Part shown: positions 2,241 through 16,108 of the stretch, in pieces
How positions within the stretch are numbered: position 1 is the stretch's first letter
Layout of the letters: each line of letters opens with the position of its first letter
Assembly: GCF_018619335.1 (NCBI RefSeq)
Contig: NZ_JAHHDX010000039.1
Coordinates: 1-64,000, forward strand
DNA: 64,000 nucleotides
Source of the DNA: Alteromonas sp. ALT199
GTDB lineage: Bacteria > Pseudomonadota > Gammaproteobacteria > Enterobacterales > Alteromonadaceae
Reading direction: 5' to 3'
Made by a program: the position numbers and the translations under genes
The notes under the pieces: generated by a model
What the model saw: the letters and a program-made list of their open reading frames with translations, nothing else
Databases searched by the model: none
Told to the model about the DNA's origin: nothing

Positions 2241-5200
2241 TTAGTACTTAACAGTTACGCCTGCAAACAAGCGTGGGCCATAATCATTTACTTCGCCAAG
2301 GTTGCCTTGAACATAGTAGTCTTGAGACTTAGGAGCACTAAATAGGTTAATTGCTTCAACCTTAACGCGTACATGCTCATTAACTTTATACGATGCGCGG
2401 GCTTCCCATACACCTACCTCATCTACGTAGCGAAGGCGAGTTCCATTGCTGGTATACGGCTGGAAGTACTCACTTCTATACTTGTAAATAAGCGCAGTAT
2501 CAAGATCGCCAATCTGATAGTAAACCTGACCGCTAAACACGTGTTCAGAGAAGCCAGGTACAGCGCCTGGAGGAATGATACCTTGAGTCAACTGTGAAGT
2601 ATTACCATCAAGGTCGGTAATAAATGTATCGCCGTAATTACTGTCTTCAAACTCGTAATCAGTGTCGGCATAGTTATAGCCGAATTTCACGCCAATACCG
2701 CTATCCCAACGGTAAGCAACAGAGGTTTCTATACCTATCAATGAGCTACTATCATCAGTAGTCACAGAGTTTGTGATAGGCAAGTTGTAATTGTCACCCT
2801 CAATCTCAAACGTTTCTAGCACCGTTTGCTGTTGGAAGCCACCGTTAAACTGTTTGTAGTAAACACCGAAAGCAAAGATTGAGTCTTCATTCGGGTACCA
2901 CTCAATGGCAACGTCGTAGTTCCAAGACATAAGAGGCTCTGTACTTGGATTACCTGAACCATTCACGCCAACAATTAGGTCTGAAATAGTGGTTGGAGCG
3001 ACTTCATCGTCAGTTTGGAACGTACGGCTAAAGCCTAAATCAGATGGGTCTGCGCGAGACATACCGCGATAGATACCTGCACGCAGTAAAATATCGTCGC
3101 TATAATCCATTACAAAGTTAGCGCTAGGAAGGACCTCGGTATAGCTACCACCACCTTCGATACGCTCAACGACTGAGTCATCTTCAACAAGTGTAAGTGT
3201 ACCCAGCTCACCTTCAATAATTTCAAAAGCGCTTCTAAAACCAATTGACGTAACTTCCGTGTTTACAACACGCACACCGAAGTTACCGCGAATAAATTTG
3301 CCCCACATTTCTGTATCGTAATTCGCCATTAAATAACCAGCGTAAGTACGCTCAGTAACGTCTATTGTTCCTGAATTTTCATATTCTAACTCTGGATAGC
3401 CAAAAGCATCACCATTAGATGCAGCAACAGCACTAGCAAAGCAGTTGTTATCATATGTTGCCCATGAAGAACCCGTGCCGCTATCTACCGTATTTCCGTC
3501 GCCGTCGACGTGCGTGATGATGTTTCCATCTGAAACAGAGGATAAGAAGTCACTTTCTGGGAAGTCAATCTGACAACCTTGCATAAGAGCAATGGCCTGA
3601 GCAATTTCTTCTTCATCGGTTGAGCCTTCGGTAGCCGAGAACGTCCATTCAGTTCTAGAACCGTTGCCCTGAGAACCACCTAGCTGAACAAATGTCATTT
3701 CTGATGCACGTAGGCCACCTTCAACACTTACGAATACATCGTGATCAAGGATATAGCTAAAATCTACCTTAGCCGACTTAACTTCGTTTTCGCGGGTATT
3801 CTCTCTATCAGCACGAGTGCGTAAGCTATCGTAGAAATTAGTGATGTCGGTCACGTCAAAGTTTTGTACTGTGAAATGAGGGATATCATCACCCATATCC
3901 CACGAGAAAAATTGTCTGTCTTCGGTTCGGGCACGGTTTGAAATTTGTAGTTCTTCACGCTCTGTTTTCGAGTAAGCAAGATCGAAACTTAGCGTTAAAG
4001 CGTCGGTAGCGAAGTGTTCAACATTGATACCAAAACCATGGTAGGTTTCGTCGCGCGAGAATTGTTCGCCAGAGCTTTCAATACGGTCTTGACCTTCCCA
4101 ATGTAAAATACCACCCACATCATTAGTTACTAGAGTTGGGCCAGTTAATCCAGGGATCGCACGTTTTTGTAAGAATATTAAGTCGTGTCTTGCTTCTTGC
4201 TGCAAACGATTTGAGTATTGGAAGTCGGTGTTGATATCCCAGGCTTCATTAGGCTGAAACTGCAGCGCTAAAAAGAATGCGTCTCGCTCGTCAGACGTTT
4301 CGTTTTGACGGTAGCTTCGTGAACTTCCGGTCCAAGCGTAAGGCGTACCAGCACTTATCGCTTCACCCGTTTCAGGGTCTATTTCCGTGTTATAACCCTG
4401 ATTTGAGCTACCGCTAACCTGGTCTTCACAGTCGCCAGCGCTGCTGCGGAAAAAGCCTTCATTAGTGTTGGTCGGATCGTTCAAACACGCCCATAGCGAA
4501 GAACCCGTTGGGCTAGAGCTTCTGTACTCGGCTTCAGGTTGAGTTATGTCCTGACGCTGGGCACCGATAGAGATACCTAACGCAGAACCGTTGTTGAACT
4601 CAAACTGGTCAACATAGCTTATCGTTCCACGATAGCCTAAGTCACTGTGAAGTGAATTATCTACATTGCCTTCGTCAGGGTTATAGTTGCCTTTAACTTC
4701 ACCCTGAATACGCTGTTTGCCGTAATCAAGAGGGGCTACAGTTTCAAGGGCTATAACACCAGCCACACCACCTTCAATCATAGAGGCGTCTTGTGTTTTA
4801 TAGATAGCAATCTTCTTAACCAGTTCACTTGGAAACTGTGAGAAGTTAACAGAGCGGTCACCACTACCGTTAGTCGCTTCACGGCCGTTAATGTGCGTAG
4901 CACTTAAGAACGGACCTAGACCACGAATAGTAATTTCTGTAGCACCACCATTTTCACGGTGCGAAGCAGCACCCGTAATTGATTCTAGTGCTTCACCAAT
5001 AGAAAGCGCTGGTAAATCACCAATGTCTTCGGCCGATAAGCCGTCAACAACAGTAGTAGATTCGCGCTTGATTGAAATCTGGTCTTGTATAGTACGACGT
5101 GAGCCAACAACGTCAATAACTTCTACGTCTTCAGCGGCGGCTTGCTCTTGCGCTTCTTGTGCTTGTAGCGAAAAAGCAGAAGTGCTTGCTACGCCAGCGA

Positions 5201-5267
5201 TGAATGCTGCTTTTACCCAGCGTGCTGTTGGGTTTAGGGTAAAGGATGTGCTTCTTTTCAACGACAT
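2241..5267 (-). CDS. TonB-dependent receptor, polysaccharide-type
   Basis: A 1008-residue outer-membrane receptor that would import an oligosaccharide or other large ligand using TonB energy. A signal peptide (about residues 1-37, ending LQA) precedes a TonB-box-like VEVIDVVGSRR. The plug domain (about 60-190) carries the family phrases SIGEALESITGA, ITIRGLGPF and GGVAGVIALETV. The remainder is the 22-stranded barrel ending in a terminal aromatic residue (VTVKY). Length and plug wording fit the TonB receptor subfamily common in Alteromonas, Xanthomonas and Caulobacter. GGAGA sits 6 bases before ATG. It follows the PL6-like lipoprotein gene by 84 bases on the same strand, with a hairpin in the gap, so the pair probably forms a surface binding and uptake system. 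Substrate is inferred from context only. Confidence 0.92.
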   Translation of the reverse strand: MSLKRSTSFTLNPTARWVKAAFIAGVASTSAFSLQAQEAQEQAAAEDVEVIDVVGSRRTIQDQISIKRESTTVVDGLSAEDIGDLPALSIGEALESITGAASHRENGGATEITIRGLGPFLSATHINGREATNGSGDRSVNFSQFPSELVKKIAIYKTQDASMIEGGVAGVIALETVAPLDYGKQRIQGEVKGNYNPDEGNVDNSLHSDLGYRGTISYVDQFEFNNGSALGISIGAQRQDITQPEAEYRSSSPTGSSLWACLNDPTNTNEGFFRSSAGDCEDQVSGSSNQGYNTEIDPETGEAISAGTPYAWTGSSRSYRQNETSDERDAFFLALQFQPNEAWDINTDFQYSNRLQQEARHDLIFLQKRAIPGLTGPTLVTNDVGGILHWEGQDRIESSGEQFSRDETYHGFGINVEHFATDALTLSFDLAYSKTEREELQISNRARTEDRQFFSWDMGDDIPHFTVQNFDVTDITNFYDSLRTRADRENTRENEVKSAKVDFSYILDHDVFVSVEGGLRASEMTFVQLGGSQGNGSRTEWTFSATEGSTDEEEIAQAIALMQGCQIDFPESDFLSSVSDGNIITHVDGDGNTVDSGTGSSWATYDNNCFASAVAASNGDAFGYPELEYENSGTIDVTERTYAGYLMANYDTEMWGKFIRGNFGVRVVNTEVTSIGFRSAFEIIEGELGTLTLVEDDSVVERIEGGGSYTEVLPSANFVMDYSDDILLRAGIYRGMSRADPSDLGFSRTFQTDDEVAPTTISDLIVGVNGSGNPSTEPLMSWNYDVAIEWYPNEDSIFAFGVYYKQFNGGFQQQTVLETFEIEGDNYNLPITNSVTTDDSSSLIGIETSVAYRWDSGIGVKFGYNYADTDYEFEDSNYGDTFITDLDGNTSQLTQGIIPPGAVPGFSEHVFSGQVYYQIGDLDTALIYKYRSEYFQPYTSNGTRLRYVDEVGVWEARASYKVNEHVRVKVEAINLFSAPKSQDYYVQGNLGEVNDYGPRLFAGVTVKY

Positions 5268-5294
5268 TACAATTTCTCCGTTGTGTTATCGATG

Positions 5295-5319
5295 CACTAA
5301 CGCCCCGGAGGGCGCAGTG
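5295..5319 (-). other. Hairpin in the lipoprotein-receptor intergenic gap
   Basis: An interrupted inverted repeat, CACT..CGCCC and GGGCG.AGTG, with a 4-base CGGA loop. No T run follows on either strand, so it looks more like an mRNA-stabilising or processing structure than a full terminator. Confidence 0.5.
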
Positions 5320-5351
5320 ACTAAATGTGTAGGGTATTTGTGTTTTATGTA

Positions 5352-8066
5352 TTAATTATCTGCTGTCCATGTAGAGCCAGCACCTACATCAGTAGACTGA
5401 ATGTAGTAAAGCCCTTTAGCCCCAGCGATAGCTTGCGCACCGTTCGGGTCGGTTTCAATTAAACCATTGGTAGCAGTCACGAACTCTGGCACTTCCTTGC
5501 CATTGTCAGCTGGGTTTTGGTCGATAGCGCCGTCAGTGTCGAATTCGCCATTGCCATTAAGGTTGCGAATATCTACCCAAGACTCATCTTCAACATCTCC
5601 TGACGCATAGCTATCAGTAAAGCCGAAGTTGTTAGATAGAAGTGATTCGTCGTGGTTAATTAGGTCGCAATCGTATTCAAAAGCGTGGTCACTGCTAACA
5701 GCTTCTGAGTCAAAAGCAAAGCCTAACGTGCTCTCTTTGTCTGCTTCGTTAAATCCATTGGCAATAGCGTTGGCATCGAAGTCAATAACAAAGAAATTCT
5801 TGGTAAGACCATAAAGAGTAGGGGCGTTATCTGCAGTTAACTCATCGCAATCGCCAACAGGTGCTTTGCTGCCAACCTCTGTACTAAATACAATAGGTTG
5901 CAGTGAATTTAAAACCGTGTTTTTCGAAACGGTTAGCGTAAGGTCACCGCTGCCGTCAAGCACCGTTTGATTCCCTGCATTTGGAACACCGCCGTCAGCC
6001 TGAGAGAACGGGTTAGCAGTAAATACTAGGCCGCCGGCTTCTTTATTGCCAGAGCGAATACCTGCAATGTAGTTGTTCATTACCGTATGGCCGAGCGGCG
6101 TGATTAATACACCACTTGGGCGGTCGTCTGAACCCGTAATATCAGTAGTTCTAATAATGATATTGTCAGCAACGGTGTTAAACCCACCGTCTTCCAACGA
6201 AATACCGCCATTAGCATCAATGATGGTGTTGCCTTGAATAGTAGCGCCAGACGTTTGGACGCGCATTAGACGACGTCCTGAAGTAAAGTTATCAATACGG
6301 TTGTACTGAACAACAAAGTTAGCGTCTTCTGCCGCATCCGCACCCGTAGTGCTTCCAACGTTAAGTAGCAGTAGGCTTGATTGGTTGAAGTTCGGGTTAA
6401 CCGCATTTTCAAACAAGTTGTATTGAATAGTATGGTTTAGACCCGAAGAAGAGAGCTTAATCACCGAGCCTTTAACCGCGTTGTTTCTATTGCGGAATGT
6501 ATTACGCTCAATCATGGCGCCTTCGCCATTTACTACAAGCCAGTGATGAGTTTCTTCGTTTAGCGTAGTCTGGTCGCCGTCCATTGTGTTTTCAGTGAAA
6601 GTGAAATTATCACCTTCAGAGTAAATAACTGCAGCAGCCTCGCTTTCACAGTAAGAATCTACTGCTGTATCTATGTTTTCAAACCGAATGCCTTTTATTG
6701 CGGCACCGTCTACAGTGCTAGCAATGTTCACACATGCTTCGCCAGAAATAACCGGAGTTTCACCTTCTACGGCGGTCATAGTAACGGCACTGGTTAACAT
6801 AATTGGCGCCAAGTCAGCATAAACGTTAGTGTTTAGACCTAATACATCGCCGTCGGCTAAGCCGCTATTTAGCGCACTTTCAAGGCCAGCTTTGTCATTA
6901 ACAACAGTGCTGTACACGATAGTATCTACTGCATCTGAAGCCGATCCTTCAAAACCGTCATTATCGGTATAAGAGGCTTCTACAGAAATAATCGCGCCCG
7001 CATTCGCGCTTGGTGTGAATGTATTGCTGTTGCTATCAGGTACAGCCACACCATTTGCAAACCAAGTGTATACAACACCGGCTTCATCAAACCCGTTGTT
7101 ATCAGTGAGAGTTGCAGTTAAAGCACCGTTCACTAAGTAGGGAACTGTTCCTGTTATCTCGATTGCGCCAGCTTCGTCAACAGCTTGCTCATTTACCGGA
7201 ATAGTAGGCTCTGAAGTAATGACTTCTTCAAAACCGTTATCATCGGTATAAGATGCTTCAACAGTAATTACCTGTCCAACGAGACTTGTTTCAACTACAT
7301 AGCTGCTTTGAGTGGCACCAGAGATGGCAGTATCATCGCCATACCATTGATAAGCGATTTCACCGGTAGCACCGTCTTCATCATTTACTTCTGTAGAAAG
7401 TGTATTACCTACTGTGGGAGTTCCGACAATAGTGATTGCACCTTCAGAGTTTACTCGGCCTACGAGAGCTGTTGGCTCAGACATTGGCGCTTCGTCAAAC
7501 CCTCGGTTATCCGTAAACGTTGCTGAAACGCTGATGACCTTGCCAAACTCATTTTCCGTGAGTGTGAGTATTGATGTAACTTCATTTTCAATAGCGACAT
7601 CATCTGCGAACCACGTATAAACAATGCTTTCAGGCTCAACGCCATTTTCATCTGACACAGAAGCTGTAAGCATACCGCCTACCACAACATCGCCAGAGAT
7701 TGCGATAGTTGAGGCAAAGGCAATCGCCATAACATCGCTAGTTGGGTCACTTACGTGAGACTCGTTAATGCCACCATCGTCGGTATAAGAGCCTTGCACC
7801 GTAATAGCTGCACCAATTTGATCGTCAGTTAGCGTAAAACTAGCGCCGCTTGCGTCAGCAATTAGCTGGTTGTCTGCATACCAAAAGTAGCTAACCGATG
7901 ATGAAATTCCATCTGGATCACTGACTGAAGCAGTCAAGGTCTCGCCGGACGTCGGCGTTCCAGATAATGTAATACTGCCTAAAGTGTTAGGGTTGTTGTC
8001 AGAATCTACATCACATCCTGTAATGGCAGCTGCTATTGCGCAAAGTGCAAATGCTTTTATCTTCAT
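5352..8066 (-). CDS. Surface lipoprotein with four Ig-like repeats and a PL6-like beta-helix lacking catalytic residues
   Basis: A 904-residue predicted lipoprotein (lipobox ITGC, Cys18). Residues about 31-385 hold four repeats of about 85-95 residues with recurring Y-W/F-x-A/G-D and SYTDD-GF phrases. Residues about 387-770 form a right-handed beta-helix with many N-x-I/F turns; wording such as GFNTVADN and GHTVMNNYIAGI matches the polysaccharide lyase family 6 / chondroitinase B fold. In that family a catalytic Lys and an Arg lie 21 residues apart, in vKSS and LRHG contexts. Here the matching positions are Gln604 (VQTS) and Glu625 (LEDG), also 21 apart, and the calcium-ligand Glu positions 7 and 5 before the Lys are Gly597 and Arg599. 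It is therefore probably a binding protein or an altered enzyme. It precedes the TonB receptor in the same unit. Confidence 0.75.
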   Translation of the reverse strand: MKIKAFALCAIAAAITGCDVDSDNNPNTLGSITLSGTPTSGETLTASVSDPDGISSSVSYFWYADNQLIADASGASFTLTDDQIGAAITVQGSYTDDGGINESHVSDPTSDVMAIAFASTIAISGDVVVGGMLTASVSDENGVEPESIVYTWFADDVAIENEVTSILTLTENEFGKVISVSATFTDNRGFDEAPMSEPTALVGRVNSEGAITIVGTPTVGNTLSTEVNDEDGATGEIAYQWYGDDTAISGATQSSYVVETSLVGQVITVEASYTDDNGFEEVITSEPTIPVNEQAVDEAGAIEITGTVPYLVNGALTATLTDNNGFDEAGVVYTWFANGVAVPDSNSNTFTPSANAGAIISVEASYTDNDGFEGSASDAVDTIVYSTVVNDKAGLESALNSGLADGDVLGLNTNVYADLAPIMLTSAVTMTAVEGETPVISGEACVNIASTVDGAAIKGIRFENIDTAVDSYCESEAAAVIYSEGDNFTFTENTMDGDQTTLNEETHHWLVVNGEGAMIERNTFRNRNNAVKGSVIKLSSSGLNHTIQYNLFENAVNPNFNQSSLLLLNVGSTTGADAAEDANFVVQYNRIDNFTSGRRLMRVQTSGATIQGNTIIDANGGISLEDGGFNTVADNIIIRTTDITGSDDRPSGVLITPLGHTVMNNYIAGIRSGNKEAGGLVFTANPFSQADGGVPNAGNQTVLDGSGDLTLTVSKNTVLNSLQPIVFSTEVGSKAPVGDCDELTADNAPTLYGLTKNFFVIDFDANAIANGFNEADKESTLGFAFDSEAVSSDHAFEYDCDLINHDESLLSNNFGFTDSYASGDVEDESWVDIRNLNGNGEFDTDGAIDQNPADNGKEVPEFVTATNGLIETDPNGAQAIAGAKGLYYIQSTDVGAGSTWTADN

Positions 8067-8125
8067 GATGGCATCGTGCTCCGAGTTAAATTGTAGGGTG
8101 GTAAGGTCGTTATCTTATTTTTGTG

Positions 8126-8161
8126 TTACCAATGTTTTTATTTGTTTGACCAAATTGGTAA
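8126..8161 (-). promoter_or_regulatory. Candidate GntR/UxuR-like operator upstream of the lipoprotein gene
   Basis: TTACCAAT (8126-8133) and ATTGGTAA (8154-8161) form an exact 8-bp inverted repeat with a 20-base spacer. The second half overlaps the palindrome ACCAAATTGGT (8149-8159). The UxuR/ExuR consensus is known to contain AAATTGGT and ACCAATTT halves. The same TTACCAAT recurs upstream of the reductase gene at 10743. Function is inferred. Confidence 0.45.
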
Positions 8162-8332
8162 TAAGGTTAATAAAAACACAATTCATTAACATTTGCTAGG
8201 GGATTTACAAAATTACTTTAAAAAAAGGGAAGTTAGATTAAATTTGATGCAGGAAGAGCAAGAACTGGCTTGGCAGCCTAAGAAGTGCGCATATCTTTAT
8301 GAAAGTAAAAGTTAAATTTAATGAGGAAATAT

Positions 8333-8365
8333 GCGCTACCGGATATCAAACCAACCCGGTAGCGC
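8333..8365 (-). terminator. Hairpin after the MFS gene, possible terminator
   Basis: A perfect 10-bp inverted repeat (GCGCTACCGG / CCGGTAGCGC) with a 13-base loop, just past the MFS stop codon. Read leftward it is followed by only a short T-rich stretch (ATATTTCC), so it may be a weak terminator or allow readthrough. Confidence 0.5.
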
Positions 8366-8374
8366 AGTGGTGTG

Positions 8375-9688
8375 CTACTGCTTAGGCTTAAGCATTTCTA
8401 TCTTGGGTATAAGAGTCCATATCGCCACAATTGCAATAATGGCTAACGATGCACCGATAACGAATGCTGGCGTATAGTTTCCATCTGCGGTTAGCCACGG
8501 CACTAACGACGTTAAACCAACAGCGCCTAACTTGGCCGCCATACCTGAAAAGCCAGACAAAGTGCCTACAGCCTTCTTACCAAACAAGTCACTAGGAAGC
8601 GTTTGAACATTACCAATTGCTGTTTGGAAGCCAAATAAAATAACGGCCATGATTAGTACAGCAACTGTTGGTGCACCTGGGTTCGACATAGCAATAAGTG
8701 CAGGAAGCATAATTAAACAGCCCAAGGTGATGACTAATTTTCTAGTCTTGTCTGTGTTCCAGCCTGCCGCAATTCGGTTTTGCGCTAACAAGCCGCCAAA
8801 CCATGCGCCTAGCATCGCTCCTACATAAGGAACCCAGCCGTATATACCTATCTCTGTAACGTTCATCCCGTATACTTCGTTAAGATAGATAGGGATCCAG
8901 AATACAAATAGCCACCAAATAGGGTCGATTGCTGCCGATGCGATAATTACGCCCCAGCTCTGTTTTCGAGAAAGTAGTTCACCTGTTGAAGGGCTGTATT
9001 CCTCAGCTTCTTTGACATCACCATTTTCATCTTTGTCTTCGCTCATGGTACGCTGACCAGAAAGAATATAGTGTTTTTCTTCTTCAGTTATCCAGGAGTG
9101 CATTGCCGGCGGAGCTTTCACGATGATGACCCACGGGACAAGCCATAATAGGCCAATTGCACCTACCATAATAAATACAGCTTGCCAGCTGAAATGAAGT
9201 GTTAAAAAACCAATGATTGGAAAGGCGATGATGCCGCCAATAGCTGCACCTGAGTTGAATATACCTTGAGCTAAAGCTCGCTCTTTAGTAGGAAACCACT
9301 CAGCATTGCCTTTTGTGGCACCGGGCCAGTTACCTGCTTCAGCAATACCCAAAATAGATCTGAAAATACTAAAGCTAAGCATTCCTTGGGCAAAAGCGTG
9401 CGCGATAGTAGCCAGTGACCAAACACCAATAGAGAGGACGAAGCCAATTCGCGTTCCAATCCAGTCGAAAATCTTACCGAAAATCGCCTGACCAAATGCG
9501 TAAGAAAATACAAATACGATAGATATGTTAGCGTAAATCTGTTTCCTTTCTAACGCTGATTCATCGGGAAACAAGTCTTCTACAATAGCAGGCCATAATA
9601 CGCTTAAAGCTTGTCTATCGATGTAATTTATAATCGTTGCGAGAGCAATAAGTGTAATTACCCACCAACGTAGACCTTGAATTTTCAC
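8375..9688 (-). CDS. MFS transporter, ExuT-like anion:cation symporter
   Basis: A 437-residue inner-membrane carrier with about 12 membrane segments. The N-terminus (TIINYIDRQALSVLWPAI) and the later GIAEAGNWPGATKGNAEWFP are typical of the ACS group of the major facilitator superfamily, which includes hexuronate carriers such as ExuT. A hydrophilic central loop at about residues 205-240 (rich in Glu and Asp) separates the two halves. Translation probably begins at GTG. It lies 51 bases after the reductase gene on the same strand, so the two should be co-transcribed. The likely job is to move a uronate monomer or unsaturated uronate derivative into the cytoplasm. The exact substrate cannot be read from the sequence. 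Confidence 0.85.
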   Translation of the reverse strand: MKIQGLRWWVITLIALATIINYIDRQALSVLWPAIVEDLFPDESALERKQIYANISIVFVFSYAFGQAIFGKIFDWIGTRIGFVLSIGVWSLATIAHAFAQGMLSFSIFRSILGIAEAGNWPGATKGNAEWFPTKERALAQGIFNSGAAIGGIIAFPIIGFLTLHFSWQAVFIMVGAIGLLWLVPWVIIVKAPPAMHSWITEEEKHYILSGQRTMSEDKDENGDVKEAEEYSPSTGELLSRKQSWGVIIASAAIDPIWWLFVFWIPIYLNEVYGMNVTEIGIYGWVPYVGAMLGAWFGGLLAQNRIAAGWNTDKTRKLVITLGCLIMLPALIAMSNPGAPTVAVLIMAVILFGFQTAIGNVQTLPSDLFGKKAVGTLSGFSGMAAKLGAVGLTSLVPWLTADGNYTPAFVIGASLAIIAIVAIWTLIPKIEMLKPKQ

Positions 9689-9739
9689 GGCATCACTTCT
9701 CTTTTAGGTTGTGTATAGTTTCGCCAGCGCGTTCGTTTA

Positions 9740-10618
9740 CTACTTATCTAATTTGACAAAATAGTCGTAGATTTCAGGTACGTTGCCGTTACCTAAGCCC
9801 GCATCTAAAGCTGCTTGCAAATTAGCTGATGAACCTTCAGCAATTTTTGATTCAGTTCCCAGATCTTCAACCATTTTTAGAAAATAGCCTAAGTCTTTGT
9901 TGGCGTTAGCAATAGAAAAGCCTAAATCGCTGTTGTTATCTACCGCATAATTCTTACAAAATTGCATAAACGGTGAATTTGAAGGACCCGCTGACATAAT
10001 GTCGAACAGTTGTTGGCGATCAACACCTGCACGCTCTGCTACAGCAAATGCTTGAGACATAGCGCATACTGTGGTCATTCCCATGAAATTATTGATTAGT
10101 TTCGTAGTATGGCCCGCGCCAAGTTGTCCAAGATAGAATACGTTTTCACCTTGTTCATCAAGTACTGGCTTAACTTTTTCAAAAGTTTCTTTATCACCAG
10201 AAGCCATAATATTAAGAAGACCGTCTTTTGCATGAGCAGGTGTGCGGCCTAATGGTGCATCTACCATACCTACGCCTTTAGCAGCTAAATCAGAGCCAAT
10301 TTTTCGAGTAGAAGACGGAATTGAGGTACCAAAATCTATTACAACTGCACCTTCTTTAAGGCCTGCCATAATACCGTCGTCAGCATACATCACCGACTCT
10401 ACAATATTGGATGTGGTCAAACACAGCATTACGATATCTGACTTTTCTGCCAGCTCCTTGCCTGAGGTAGCTACACCTGCTCCACGCTCAGTGCATTTTG
10501 CAACTGCTTCTGGATTTAAATCCATAACTGTAGTTGGAAAACCTTTGTTTAAAAGGTTTTCTACCATGTTGCCGCCCATAAGGCCTAGGCCGATAAAACC
10601 AATTGATGGTTTAGACAT
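9740..10618 (-). CDS. 3-hydroxyisobutyrate dehydrogenase-family reductase
   Basis: A 292-residue cytoplasmic NAD(P)-dependent oxidoreductase. The Rossmann motif GLGLMG is at residues 10-15, and Asp33 after the second strand suggests NAD preference. The family catalytic Lys is Lys173 in GAGHTTKLINNFM, with Asn177. The substrate loop (120-133, DAPLGRTPAHAKDG) departs from the usual DAPVSGG form, pointing to a substrate other than 3-hydroxyisobutyrate. Relatives in alginate loci reduce 4-deoxy-L-erythro-5-hexoseulose uronate (DehR type) or tartronate semialdehyde; which applies here is inference. A longer open frame runs to 10681 from a GTG, but ATG at 10618 has GAGG about 9 bases upstream and matches the usual family start. 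First gene of a unit with the MFS carrier. Confidence 0.82.
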   Translation of the reverse strand: MSKPSIGFIGLGLMGGNMVENLLNKGFPTTVMDLNPEAVAKCTERGAGVATSGKELAEKSDIVMLCLTTSNIVESVMYADDGIMAGLKEGAVVIDFGTSIPSSTRKIGSDLAAKGVGMVDAPLGRTPAHAKDGLLNIMASGDKETFEKVKPVLDEQGENVFYLGQLGAGHTTKLINNFMGMTTVCAMSQAFAVAERAGVDRQQLFDIMSAGPSNSPFMQFCKNYAVDNNSDLGFSIANANKDLGYFLKMVEDLGTESKIAEGSSANLQAALDAGLGNGNVPEIYDYFVKLDK

Positions 10619-11239
10619 TATCTTTTCCTCATAAGTAAAAATTTCGAAGGTTAGATACAACCTTGTCACCCTTGGTATCACCTAGTCTTTAACGGTCCAC
10701 TGTCTATCAAACAGTGCTCTATTAACTTTATGACTATTGTTATTACCAATTTCATGGGTTAACCCTATTTCTATCTTGCCAATTTGTCAACCAATATCGA
10801 TACTGAGGTCATTAATATGTAAACAAAATGTAGGTATTTAGATGAGAAATCATTATGAAATTTTGTTTTTAAAGTGAATTTATGATATTAAATTGCTGAT
10901 ATTTAATTACTTTTTTTGACTTTTATGTGAGCACGGGTAAATGAGAAGTGACATTGGAATTTGTTTATTTGAAAGTATAAATTCACTTACTGAAATTTGA
11001 AGAGTGTCGTTTTATTGGTCAAGTCAATTTAGCTACAATTCAAATTTGATTGATAAAGATAGGTTCGTTGTATGCATCTTGGTTACACCGTTGTAGGATT
11101 AAGGTAAGCTATAGCCCATAAAACGCAGTCGTATTTTCAACGTTAAGTACGATTAGGTTTAATTGCACTGGCACCGTTGCGTGTAGGACACAAAGTAGCG
11201 CAATGTGTTGAAAGCCAGAGTTTAAATAGATAATAGAGA
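10619..11239. other. Long AT-rich divergent intergenic region
   Basis: About 620 bases between the leftward reductase and the rightward ketosynthase gene. It contains uronate-locus operator-like boxes at 10743-10795 and the palindrome GGGTTAACCC at 10756-10765. I see no open frame with a ribosome binding site. A further TTGGTCAA near 11016 may be chance. Confidence 0.5.
10743..10795 (-). promoter_or_regulatory. Candidate GntR/UxuR-like operator upstream of the reductase-MFS unit
   Basis: TTACCAAT at 10743-10750, within a TTATTACCAATTT that is the exact reverse complement of bases in the lipoprotein-gene promoter (8152-8164). A second degenerate copy, TTGCCAATTTGTCAACCAAT, follows at 10776-10795. 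The match links the two units as one regulon; the regulator is not in this window. Confidence 0.45.
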
Positions 11240-12620: not shown

Positions 12621-14666
12621 ATGATTTCAGATGTAGGCTATGGATTAAATAGTCTGGCGCACTTAGCCCTTTTATTATTATTGCTGACAGTAAGAAAACC
12701 AGGGGTAGCCAAACATCTACTCGTTCTAGCAACTGCGGCTACTTTTCTGTGGTCGACAAGTTTAATCACCTCACTTTTCGGTCCTATTTCTCTTAGCTGG
12801 TTACTTAGTGTTGATGTAATAAAGCAATTGGCTTGGCTGTTGTTCTTAGCTGCCTGTATTCAAACTAACTTCACCAATATTGCTGCGGTTTTAAAACGTC
12901 CAATTACGCTTATTATTGTCGCGCCAGCGCTTGTCGCACTTCTTGCGCCCTACTTATTGGCAGTAAATCCTGCGTGGAGCTTCCTAGTTTTAATCGTACT
13001 TTCTTTAGAAGTGCTTGTACTTTTAGAGGTTGTATACCGACAAGCGGGAAGAGAACAGTGGGCTTTTAAACCCCTTATAATTTATCTGGGCGCAACAAAT
13101 CTGTTCGAGTTTGTCACCTACGCCAACGCGACCATGGTCAATCAGGTAGAGATTGGCTACATCGCTGCGCGGGGTTATATTTATTTTTTGTTAATGCCTT
13201 TGTTAGTCATATCAATTCGACGAATTCATCACTGGGGCATAGATATATTCATCTCACGGGATGTAGTTTTACACAGCTCACTATTGTTAGTGGCTGGCGG
13301 TTACCTTTTCGTGATGGCCGTGGTTGGCTATGCCATAAATTATATGGGTGGAAACTGGGGAGCGACAGTTCAAATAATTCTTGTAGTCATGTCGTTTGCG
13401 CTATTGGCCACCGTATTTTTGTCGAATGGCTTTCGAACCAAAATAAAAGTCTTCATCACCAAACACTTCTTTGCAAACCAGTTTGACTACCGCGTTGAAT
13501 GGGTGAAGCTAACCAAGTGGCTTACTCGCGCCGGCGATACGTCTTCAGACGTTTTTCATGCAGGGCTAACAGGTATGCTAAACGCTATTCAGTATGAATC
13601 TGGTATGCTTTTTAAAGTGACTCCAAATGGTTATGAGTGTGTGGCGAAAGCTTCGCCTATTGAAAGCTCGGCTAATGAAAGCGTAGATAGTGCCATCTGC
13701 ACCACTTTAGAAGCCCTCGCACATTACAGTGACGAGAATGGTTGGATTATCGATACTGACGCTTACCTGGTTAAACCGTTTGACTATGAAGGGTTAAAAT
13801 TAAACCGCGACGCACTAAAAGAGTGGGGTTACCAACTATTTGTCCCTTTTTTGAAAGACGGTGGGTTGTGGGGATTTGCCGTGCTGGCGTCAGGCGACAA
13901 AGAAAAGATAAGTCTCAACTGGGAAGTGAAGGATTATCTTACTGCGGTTTCAGAGCAAGTTGGTACTTATATGCAACACCATGAAGCTGCTCAAGTAGTT
14001 GCTGAGAATGCGCAGTTCGCAGCGTTTAATCGCATGTCTGCGTTTGTATTACACGATTTAAAAAATGTACTCGCCCAAGTAGACCTAATTCTTGCAAACG
14101 CTCAACAGCACAAGCACAACCCTGAGTTTATCGAAGACACGTTCGAAACCTTAGAGCATACTAAGGCAAGAATGGAGAAAATGCTTAAGCAACTAACTGA
14201 CAAGAAGGCGGTAGACGAAGGTGTAAACGCTGAGCTTTTGCTATCTGATGTTGCGAAAGATGTGGTGAGCAACCGCTGCTCCGGTTTAAATCCGTTACCG
14301 AAAGTGCATGTACTTAAAGAAGCTGCAGTAACGATTGATAAAGAAAAAGTAGCAAATGTCTTTTATCATTTGATCAGCAATGCACAACAAGCAACGAATG
14401 ATGACGGTGAAGTTGATGTGGTTATTACCGCTAATTCTGACAACAATACCCAGCTTGTCATGATAGAGGATAATGGTGAAGGTATGGATAAGGCGTTTAT
14501 CGAAGAGCGTTTGTTCAAGCCTTTTGATACTACGAAGGGGAATGCAGGTATGGGGATCGGTGCTTATGACGCAAAAACCTATATCGAATCTATTGGTGGC
14601 AAATTAACTGTTCAAAGTGAACCAGGGCGCGGTAGCTGTTTTACACTGTATTTTCCGATAGGATAG
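12621..14666 (+). CDS. prsK: PrsK-like sensor histidine kinase
   Basis: A 681-residue membrane kinase. The first 265 residues or so contain about eight hydrophobic segments, then a GAF-like domain (about 295-445) and a kinase core. The phosphoacceptor is His478 in LHDLKN; the ATP domain shows an N box (HLISNAQQA), DNGEGMD and GNAGMGIGAYDAK. The membrane-GAF-HDLKN layout is that of PrsK, the kinase named with the PEP-CTERM/exosortase exopolysaccharide system. AGG lies a few bases before the ATG. The response regulator begins 80 bases downstream. No exosortase, PEP-CTERM protein or polysaccharide gene is in the window, so targets must be elsewhere. The input signal is unknown. Confidence 0.85.
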   Translation: MISDVGYGLNSLAHLALLLLLLTVRKPGVAKHLLVLATAATFLWSTSLITSLFGPISLSWLLSVDVIKQLAWLLFLAACIQTNFTNIAAVLKRPITLIIVAPALVALLAPYLLAVNPAWSFLVLIVLSLEVLVLLEVVYRQAGREQWAFKPLIIYLGATNLFEFVTYANATMVNQVEIGYIAARGYIYFLLMPLLVISIRRIHHWGIDIFISRDVVLHSSLLLVAGGYLFVMAVVGYAINYMGGNWGATVQIILVVMSFALLATVFLSNGFRTKIKVFITKHFFANQFDYRVEWVKLTKWLTRAGDTSSDVFHAGLTGMLNAIQYESGMLFKVTPNGYECVAKASPIESSANESVDSAICTTLEALAHYSDENGWIIDTDAYLVKPFDYEGLKLNRDALKEWGYQLFVPFLKDGGLWGFAVLASGDKEKISLNWEVKDYLTAVSEQVGTYMQHHEAAQVVAENAQFAAFNRMSAFVLHDLKNVLAQVDLILANAQQHKHNPEFIEDTFETLEHTKARMEKMLKQLTDKKAVDEGVNAELLLSDVAKDVVSNRCSGLNPLPKVHVLKEAAVTIDKEKVANVFYHLISNAQQATNDDGEVDVVITANSDNNTQLVMIEDNGEGMDKAFIEERLFKPFDTTKGNAGMGIGAYDAKTYIESIGGKLTVQSEPGRGSCFTLYFPIG

Positions 14667-14746
14667 AATAAATATAAAGAACGAGAATAAAACAGTGAGT
14701 TATTCATGTTCTTTGGATGGACGAAGTAGATTAATAGGATGATGAA

Positions 14747-16108
14747 ATGACCGATACCATTTTGGTAGTAGATGATGATTTAGGCATTCAAAAGCAGCTT
14801 AAATGGAGTCTTACAGATTACAATGTCGTTTTTGCTGACGATCATACTTCTGCCATTGCGCAGCTTCGACGTTTTGAGCCCAAAGTTGTCACTTTGGACT
14901 TGGGACTTCCCCCAGACCCGGCTAATGCTTCAGAGGGCTTGCGGATTCTTCACGATATCATCGCACTGGCGCCGAGAACGAAAGTAATTGTGGTTACTGG
15001 TAATAGTGATAAGCAAAATGCGCTTAAAGCTATTGATTTTGGTGCTTACGATTTTTATCAAAAACCTATCGATTCAGATACCATCAAGTTATTAGTCAAT
15101 CGCGCGTTAAACCTTTCAAAGTTAGAGCACGAAAACAGCATTTTAGCGCGCACCCGTTCAGGTATGTCTAGAATTGTTGGCAACAGTGAAGCGATTCAAA
15201 AAGTGGTGCGTCGCGCCGAGAAAATTGCCAATACCGATATCAGTACGTTACTACTAGGTGAAAGTGGTACGGGTAAAGAGGTATTTGCACGCAGCATTCA
15301 TGAACATAGCCCCAGAAAAGACAAACCATTTGTGGCGATAAACTGCGCGTCTATTCCAGAAAACCTGCTCGAAAGTGAATTATTTGGCTACGAAAAAGGC
15401 GCGTTCACAGGCGCAAATAAAACGACGTTAGGTAAAATAGAAACGGCACAGGGCGGTACGCTATTTTTAGATGAAATTGGTGATATGCCTATCGGCTTGC
15501 AAGCTAAGATGCTTCGTTTCTTGCAAGAGCGAGTGATTGAGCGGGTCGGTGGGCGTAATGAAATACCCGTAGATATACGTGTTATATGTGCGACTCACCG
15601 GGATTTACAATCTATGGTAGCGCAAGAAACCTTTAGGGAAGATTTGTACTACCGAGTGGGTGAGATGCCTATCATGATCCCGCCGCTGCGTGAACGGGAT
15701 CAAGATATTATTTTACTCGCCCGTACCTTCCTAAACATTTATCGCGAAGAGTTTAAAGCTAAAGCCAAGAGCTTTTCCGAAACGGCGGTTAATGCCATGC
15801 TGGCCCATAAGTGGCCGGGTAACATTCGTGAAATGCAAAACAAACTCAAATCAGCGGTTATTATGGCTGAAGGTACGGTAATACAGCCTGACGATTTAGG
15901 GCTTTTGCCAGTAGATGCCGAAGATGAACCTGAAACGCTAAACTTACGTGAAGTGCGAGAAATTGCAGAAAGCCGCGCCATACGAAGAGCTTACCAAAAG
16001 GCAGATAAAAATATGTCTAAAACGGCTGAACTACTAGGCGTCACTCGGCCAACGCTTTATTCGTTAATTGACAAATATCATATGGAAGATGTTAAAAGTA
16101 GTGATTAA
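14747..16108 (+). CDS. prsR: PrsR-like sigma-54-dependent response regulator
   Basis: A 453-residue regulator. The receiver domain has an acidic pocket (Asp10, Asp11) and phosphoacceptor Asp51 in LDLGLPPD. The AAA+ domain has Walker A GESGTGKE (171-178) and the sigma-54 contact loop GAFTGA (218-223), so it activates RpoN promoters. A Fis-type helix-turn-helix is at about 424-447 (KTAELLGVTRPTLYSLIDKY). It forms a pair with the preceding kinase and matches the PEP-CTERM-box response regulator family. All residues needed for phosphorylation, ATP hydrolysis and sigma-54 contact are visible. I found no clear -24/-12 promoter beside the pair itself. Confidence 0.9.
   Translation: MTDTILVVDDDLGIQKQLKWSLTDYNVVFADDHTSAIAQLRRFEPKVVTLDLGLPPDPANASEGLRILHDIIALAPRTKVIVVTGNSDKQNALKAIDFGAYDFYQKPIDSDTIKLLVNRALNLSKLEHENSILARTRSGMSRIVGNSEAIQKVVRRAEKIANTDISTLLLGESGTGKEVFARSIHEHSPRKDKPFVAINCASIPENLLESELFGYEKGAFTGANKTTLGKIETAQGGTLFLDEIGDMPIGLQAKMLRFLQERVIERVGGRNEIPVDIRVICATHRDLQSMVAQETFREDLYYRVGEMPIMIPPLRERDQDIILLARTFLNIYREEFKAKAKSFSETAVNAMLAHKWPGNIREMQNKLKSAVIMAEGTVIQPDDLGLLPVDAEDEPETLNLREVREIAESRAIRRAYQKADKNMSKTAELLGVTRPTLYSLIDKYHMEDVKSSD

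Follow-up and report, generated by a model that had tools for sequence, protein, structure and literature searches.

A predicted PL6_3 alginate-lyase lipoprotein of Alteromonas with a replaced catalytic and calcium site

A 64,000-nucleotide stretch of Alteromonas sp. ALT199 (contig NZ_JAHHDX010000039.1, positions 1 to 64,000; the window) encodes a 904-residue predicted lipoprotein beside a TonB-dependent receptor. Its C-terminal β-helix is of the polysaccharide lyase family 6 (PL6) type, but the residues of the canonical PL6 active site are replaced. The locus thus raises the question of whether this protein still cleaves a glycan or merely captures it. An initial annotation offered both readings, a pseudo-lyase doing the job of SusD or an enzyme with a new mechanism. 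Our analysis indicates that the protein is very probably an endo-acting alginate lyase of subfamily PL6_3, an N-terminally anchored lipoprotein with four immunoglobulin (Ig)-like domains and a C-terminal PL6 β-helix. Its close relative AlyM2 is published as an active enzyme, which makes an inactive capture protein unlikely. The PL6_3 substitution and the proposal of a new mechanism, the second of the two readings, are already known from print (2022); new here are a primer-based match to two assayed enzymes, a set of canonical controls, and a charge-swap pattern in the replaced site.

The replaced site and its conservation

Profile comparison with PL6 structures matched AlyF-OU02 (E 7.7e-33) and AlyGC (E 2.1e-16) and, with the β-helix model, identifies a PL6-type right-handed parallel β-helix, as initially annotated. 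Pfam PF14592 does not reach its E-value limit for this protein, which explains its orphan appearance. Aromatic-x-Trp motifs at residues 60, 150, 239 and 333 mark the four Ig-like repeats recognized earlier; matches of this part to the IG_AIR9 and ZirU domains both fall under their own cut-offs. The lipobox is ITGC19, and a lipobox-like motif is present in 83 of 86 homologues (P0001-P0086). The residue at +2 after the lipobox cysteine is an aspartate, which in E. coli lipoproteins favours the inner membrane, but this position is variable among the homologues, so that a surface location is only putative.

Direct reading of the translated open reading frame (ORF) confirmed Gly597, Arg599, Gln604 and Glu625, and three comparisons support the earlier assignment of Gln604/Glu625 to the Lys/Arg spacing and of Gly597/Arg599 to the calcium-binding glutamate pair. 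The HMMER alignment to AlyF is free of gaps at the site, with RELISIKSG...SLRHG opposite RRLMRVQTSG...SLEDG. In the asparagine ladder of BcelPL6, Lys249 lies at Asn234+15 and Arg270 at Asn258+12 (PMC6879350; this and the other papers are cited from excerpts), and the same rule gives 589+15 = 604 and 613+12 = 625 in the window protein. The third comparison is with AlyGC itself, encoded by a P. chathamensis locus (L092); its product and the chain of PDB 5gkd agree at all 726 residues. With AlyGC numbering anchored on Lys220, N181/E184/R187/E213/E215 correspond to S563/L566/N569/G597/R599 and K220/T239/R241/H242/R265 to Q604/S623/E625/D626/L654, so that all ten mapped site residues differ. The positions of Asn181, Glu213 and Glu215, which we take to be the calcium ligands of AlyGC, are occupied by Ser563, Gly597 and Arg599 in place of Asn/Glu/Glu, and the catalytic Lys/Arg pair with its 21-residue spacing by Gln604/Glu625.

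Canonical PL6 sequences served as controls. The pattern E-x-E-x4-K-x20-R-H-G is kept in all 44 distinct canonical PL6 ORFs of the fetched loci, which were picked by BLAST to one of them rather than by motif and include the two (L001, L002) from the genome to which the window belongs. We regard the register of the site, as judged by alignment, as secure; chance or misalignment is excluded by the asparagine ladder, by the gap-free match to AlyF in HMMER, by the AlyGC alignment and by the canonical controls. PL6_3 as a whole lacks the Lys/Arg pair (PMC8953905), so that the pair marks PL6_1 and PL6_2, not the CAZy family PL6. One PL6 enzyme has been reported to be calcium-independent (PMC6879350).

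The replaced site is highly conserved. In protein searches of which the best 120 of 266 (first) and the best 120 of 176 (second) homologues were examined, the motif G-R-R-x3-V-Q-T-S-x18-E-D-G is intact in 91 of 91 close homologues among the matches listed. This alignment, suggested in the initial annotation, excludes loss of the residues through decay. The Gln604 motif occurs in 134 clusters, with positions 604/625/626 reading Q/E/D (107), Q/E/H (12), Q/E/N (5) or Q/R/N (10). Two proteins missed by the regular expression (regex) and read by alignment, P0147 and P0149, retain Gln604 and the Arg599/Glu625 pair. Altogether, glutamine occupies the lysine position in 136 of 138 PL6_3 clusters, a feature that the window protein shares. 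The 138 clusters do not count P0206 (a spurious regex match) and listed proteins without the site: P0095, P0099, P0101, P0106, P0112, P0113, P0115-P0117 and P0119, whose matches end at residues 375-456; P0096, with one match that reaches 621 but Ig-like sequence in the site column; and P0150-P0205 and P0207-P0218 (5 of the 69 proteins P0150-P0218 extend beyond residue 450, at most to 510).

Assayed relatives and the predicted activity

Two PL6_3 enzymes with published activity could be matched to sequences through their cloning primers. Xue et al. (2022) described AlyM2 of Pseudoalteromonas arctica M9, a PL6_3 protein of 910 residues and five domains, as an active endo-lyase on polymannuronate (PM), polyguluronate (PG), the mixed polymer PMG and alginate (11.7-29.7 U/mg); trisaccharides made up about 80% of the products (PMC8953905). 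They noted that in PL6_3 the catalytic lysine is replaced by glutamine and, in most members, the arginine by aspartate, and proposed a distinct mechanism, awaiting confirmation (PMC8953905). The AlyM2 primers match two loci, L013 and L025, with zero mismatches. Both genes encode 910 residues; their products are ~65% identical to the window protein (910 columns) and have the same GRR..VQ...LEDG site. AlyM2 thus differs at 35% of residues but shares the length class, the four N-terminal β domains followed by a C-terminal β-helix, the glutamine for lysine and the lack of canonical calcium ligands; L013 and L025 also adjoin a TonB receptor in alginate loci.

Mase04180 of Alteromonas macleodii, the first PL6_3 lyase tested, was reported by Mathieu et al. 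(2016) to be an endo-poly-MG lyase, poly-MG being the only substrate for which activity is reported (PMC4954714). Locus L049 carries exact matches, at both ends, to the gene-specific stretches of the Mase04180 primers, and the stretch from the reverse primer is present in one of 59 genus genomes. The L049 protein is 33% identical to the window protein over 773 columns. The calculated values of its 816-residue mature part are 84.9 kDa and an isoelectric point (pI) of 4.05, compared with the published 103.2 kDa and pI 4.1 (PMC4954714); the gap in mass would fit a thioredoxin fusion. It shares the glutamine at the lysine column, the Ig-like N-terminus, the adjacent TonB receptor and the alginate locus, but has Arg instead of Glu at 625 and Gly instead of Arg at 599 (604/625/597/599: Gln/Arg/Asp/Gly). 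Canonical PL6_1 enzymes (AlyGC, Patl3640) share the β-helix fold and the asparagine ladder, whereas their Lys/Arg pair, Asn/Glu/Glu calcium site and Arg187/Arg265 are all replaced in the window protein.

From the activity and products of AlyM2, shown by others, we infer the same activity for the window protein. Alginate would be cut by β-elimination into short unsaturated oligosaccharides (mostly trimers in AlyM2), which would then be taken up through the adjacent TonB receptor and a major facilitator superfamily (MFS) transporter. Measured lyase activity, which the initial annotation had named as evidence against its own proposal, is thus on record for the family, in AlyM2 and Mase04180.

Two further proteins look like PL6_3 members by gene position. 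One is alt76_03417 of the alginolytic system AS2, described by Koch et al. (2019) as a PL6 without a characterised homologue (PMC6431674), and the other is the second PL6 of P. carrageenovora, whose gene is numbered next to a TonB receptor gene (PMC6262041).

Positions 599 and 625 and the possible mechanism

In canonical PL6 sequences, the 599/625 pair is Glu/Arg (44/44). Of the 138 PL6_3 clusters, 127 have Arg/Glu, 10 have Arg at 625 with Gly or Ala at 599, and one has Ala/Leu; neither a like-charged pair nor a lone Glu was found in this set. The history of this pair was examined in a tree of 73 rows calculated with the site columns left out. Besides the window protein, it holds 15 of the 91 close homologues, 43 PL6_3 proteins at a greater distance and 14 sequences from the canonical set of 44; P0139, P0143, P0147 and P0149 are not among its rows. 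Canonical and PL6_3 sides are separated at 100/100, and the latter holds P0120 (99% identical to L049) and the AlyM2-like P0046; the window protein therefore groups with the relatives of Mase04180 and AlyM2. The Arg625 type makes up a single clade (100/99) whose sister is the Q/E/H clade (100/99), and both are joined with the Q/E/N proteins (100/100), amid further Glu625 types. The PL6_3 root is uncertain, because long branches come together where the canonical rows join the close group. Since the Arg625 clade is nested among Glu625 types, the arginine of Mase04180 is most simply a secondary return, matched by the loss of Arg599. This pattern, which we did not meet with in the excerpts of PL6_3 papers, suggests, as a lead rather than proof, a partnership between positions 599 and 625 in which the arginine has been relocated instead of lost.

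A tentative mechanism for the window protein would accordingly involve no lysine base, no catalytic arginine at the usual place and no calcium site, and would rest on the Arg599/Glu625 charge swap. The Glu(599)/Arg(625) arrangement of canonical PL6 would be exchanged for its mirror image. Arg599, held by Glu625 and acting with Arg598 and Gln604, would neutralise the +1 carboxylate in place of Ca2+, and the Arg599 group may share in proton transfer. Precedents are the arginine that serves pectate lyases as a base and the neutralising glutamine of PL7. For the subfamily, it is conceivable, though doubtful at present, that PL6_3 represents an independent, calcium-free β-elimination site on the PL6 scaffold, created by the 599/625 charge swap and the change of Lys to Gln, with the arginine later back at 625 (and Gly at 599) in the Mase04180 branch. 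The function of the arginine would be kept while its position changed, and the general base would be a residue that other PL6 enzymes do not use. No solved PL6_3 mechanism was found in the open-licence PMC literature.

Several observations weigh against the proposed activity and mechanism. We found no assay of the window protein in the literature, and its locus has no other alginate lyase. The tree shows two or more changes at position 625, so that the swap rests on few events, and a contact between the side chains of 599 and 625 is putative. At the arginine position, direct reading gives Glu followed by Asp (SLEDG), compared with the aspartate of Xue et al., who may have named the residue after the Glu. 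Two other proteins missed by the regex and read by alignment depart from the new site: P0139 has Ser604, with Arg599/Glu625 retained, and P0143 has His604 and Ala599/Leu625, losing both charged partners. Not every PL6_3 member need therefore be active. In place of Arg598, P0147 and P0149 have Gln, P0139 has Glu, P0143 has Gly and P0114 has Lys.

Somewhat less likely than the charge swap is a lyase that uses other cleft residues, such as Tyr549, His660 or Glu520/Arg521, and retains the old Lys/Arg site as a binding subsite only. Tyr549, Arg521, Ser563 and His660 are constant in all 59 PL6_3 rows and Glu520 in 57, while the residues found in the 14 canonical rows are mainly His at 549 (Tyr in three, Asn in one), His at 521, Asn at 563, Gln at 660 and Asp at 520; Arg/Glu at 599/625 is found in only 49 of the 59. 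Tyrosine and histidine are also used by other alginate lyase families (PMC6879350). However, the old site keeps Gln604 (59/59) and Arg598 (58/59), its positions 599 and 625 change together, and a histidine at the matching place before another ladder asparagine (His545) suggests a structural role for His660. A different Lys/Arg pair in the cleft, envisaged in the initial annotation as a refutation, was rejected: among 405 columns examined, the 37 in which 95% or more of the 59 PL6_3 rows share a residue contain no lysine and, as the only arginines, Arg521 and Arg598.

The locus and the pseudo-lyase reading

The gene after the lipoprotein gene is a TonB receptor, as initially annotated, and the dehydrogenase, MFS transporter and receptor genes are all on the strand of the PL6_3 gene (Table 1). 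A member of the dehydrogenase's cluster precedes the canonical PL6 gene in the Mase04180 locus (L085), where the TonB receptor is adjacent on the opposite strand. Related loci pair the PL6_3 gene with canonical PL6, PL7, PL17 and a KdgF-like cupin, and also hold 2-keto-3-deoxygluconate (KDG) kinase, 2-keto-3-deoxy-6-phosphogluconate (KDPG) aldolase, fructose-bisphosphate aldolase (FBA) and fructose-bisphosphatase (FBPase) beside it. At least one of PL7, PL17, canonical PL6, KdgK, KdgF and Eda is present in 24 of 29 loci, the others being L006, L007, L016 (only 4 kb), L023 and the window. The 29 do not include the fragment L034; L016 and L032 have no sequence beyond the gene on one side, and in L019 an ORF after the PL6_3 gene, near the contig end, was left unassigned. 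The window region 2241-10681 is a reduced cluster of dehydrogenase, MFS transporter, PL6_3 and TonB receptor, with the other lyases and KDG genes missing; the canonical PL6 genes of this genome sit on other contigs (C96, C113).

Table 1. Features of the PL6_3 locus in the window
Feature	Position	Strand	Basis
Predicted PL6_3 alginate-lyase lipoprotein, 904 aa, ATG start	5352..8066	-	ORF, homologues, profile matches to PL6 structures
Signal peptide and lipobox, residues 1-19 (...AITGC19)	8010..8066	-	Sequence
Four Ig-like repeats, ~residues 25-384	6915..7994	-	Trp motifs; IG_AIR9, ZirU matches below cut-off
C-terminal β-helix (PL6 fold), residues 385-904	5355..6914	-	
Gly597, position of AlyGC Glu213	6276..6278	-	Direct reading, AlyGC alignment
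Arg599, position of AlyGC Glu215; half of proposed charge swap	6270..6272	-	AlyGC alignment
Gln604, position of catalytic Lys220	6255..6257	-	Direct reading, AlyGC alignment
Glu625, position of catalytic Arg241; other half of proposed swap	6192..6194	-	Direct reading, AlyGC alignment
Asp626, position of AlyGC His242	6189..6191	-	AlyGC alignment
TonB-dependent receptor, immediately downstream	2241..5267	-	TIGR01782, 443 bits, above cut-off
MFS transporter, probable uronate importer	8375..9688	-	PF07690; same sequence cluster as MFS of alginate loci
HIBADH-family dehydrogenase, probable 4-deoxy-L-erythro-5-hexoseulose uronate (DEH) reductase	9740..10681	-	PF03446/PF14833

It is improbable that the protein is a non-catalytic lipoprotein that captures glycans for the TonB receptor, the part that SusD plays for SusC. 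In favour of this reading, neither the canonical catalytic residues nor the calcium ligands are present, a TonB receptor gene directly adjoins the PL6_3 gene in 24 of 29 loci (the window counted), and a canonical PL6 in all 15 copy-bearing genomes of the 59 searched could make the activity redundant. Several lyases per alginate locus are usual, however, so redundancy says little. SusD has an α-helical tetratricopeptide repeat (TPR) fold, whereas the window protein has a β-helix, and the resemblance to SusD and other surface glycan-binding lipoproteins is confined to being a lipoprotein encoded beside a TonB receptor gene within a polysaccharide locus. The published activity of the 65% identical orthologue AlyM2 (PMC8953905), with that of Mase04180 (PMC4954714), led us to reject this first reading of the initial annotation. 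P0143 and P0139, with their altered new sites, are better candidates for true pseudo-lyases. An enzyme of another kind or on another substrate (a chondroitin or pectin lyase, or a mannuronan epimerase) is very improbable.

Full-length or near-full-length copies of the gene occur in 15 of the 59 genus genomes, a set that overlaps with the named loci, and canonical PL6 in 32. A tblastn search with the P. chathamensis copy gave one distant match in the plasmid collection. P0097 (1551 residues) is a multi-lyase fusion, with a PL7 domain (801-1066) flanked by two PL6_3 sites (VQ...LEDG at 570 and 1312). Woeseiaceae loci encode a 317-residue protein after the PL6_3 gene, directly in L033 (11598-12551) and after a PL7 gene in L029 (12825-13778); at E 1e-4, Pfam gives no match for the L033 copy. 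Elsewhere in the window, an XrtA/PEP-CTERM histidine kinase PrsK and response regulator pair (12621-16108) lies near the locus on the other strand, and a choice-of-anchor I protein (108-1910) has an N-terminal collagen-like stretch (collagen match below cut-off).

Retaining the reading as a PL6_3 alginate lyase prevents a plausible mis-annotation, as pseudo-lyases and SusD analogues, of the PL6_3 proteins that adjoin TonB receptors in marine Alteromonas, Pseudoalteromonas, Paraglaciecola and their relatives. Because the two types reported to be active differ by a paired change at 599/625, the question of how PL6_3 enzymes cut without the lysine, the usual arginine and the calcium site becomes amenable to a small mutagenesis plan.
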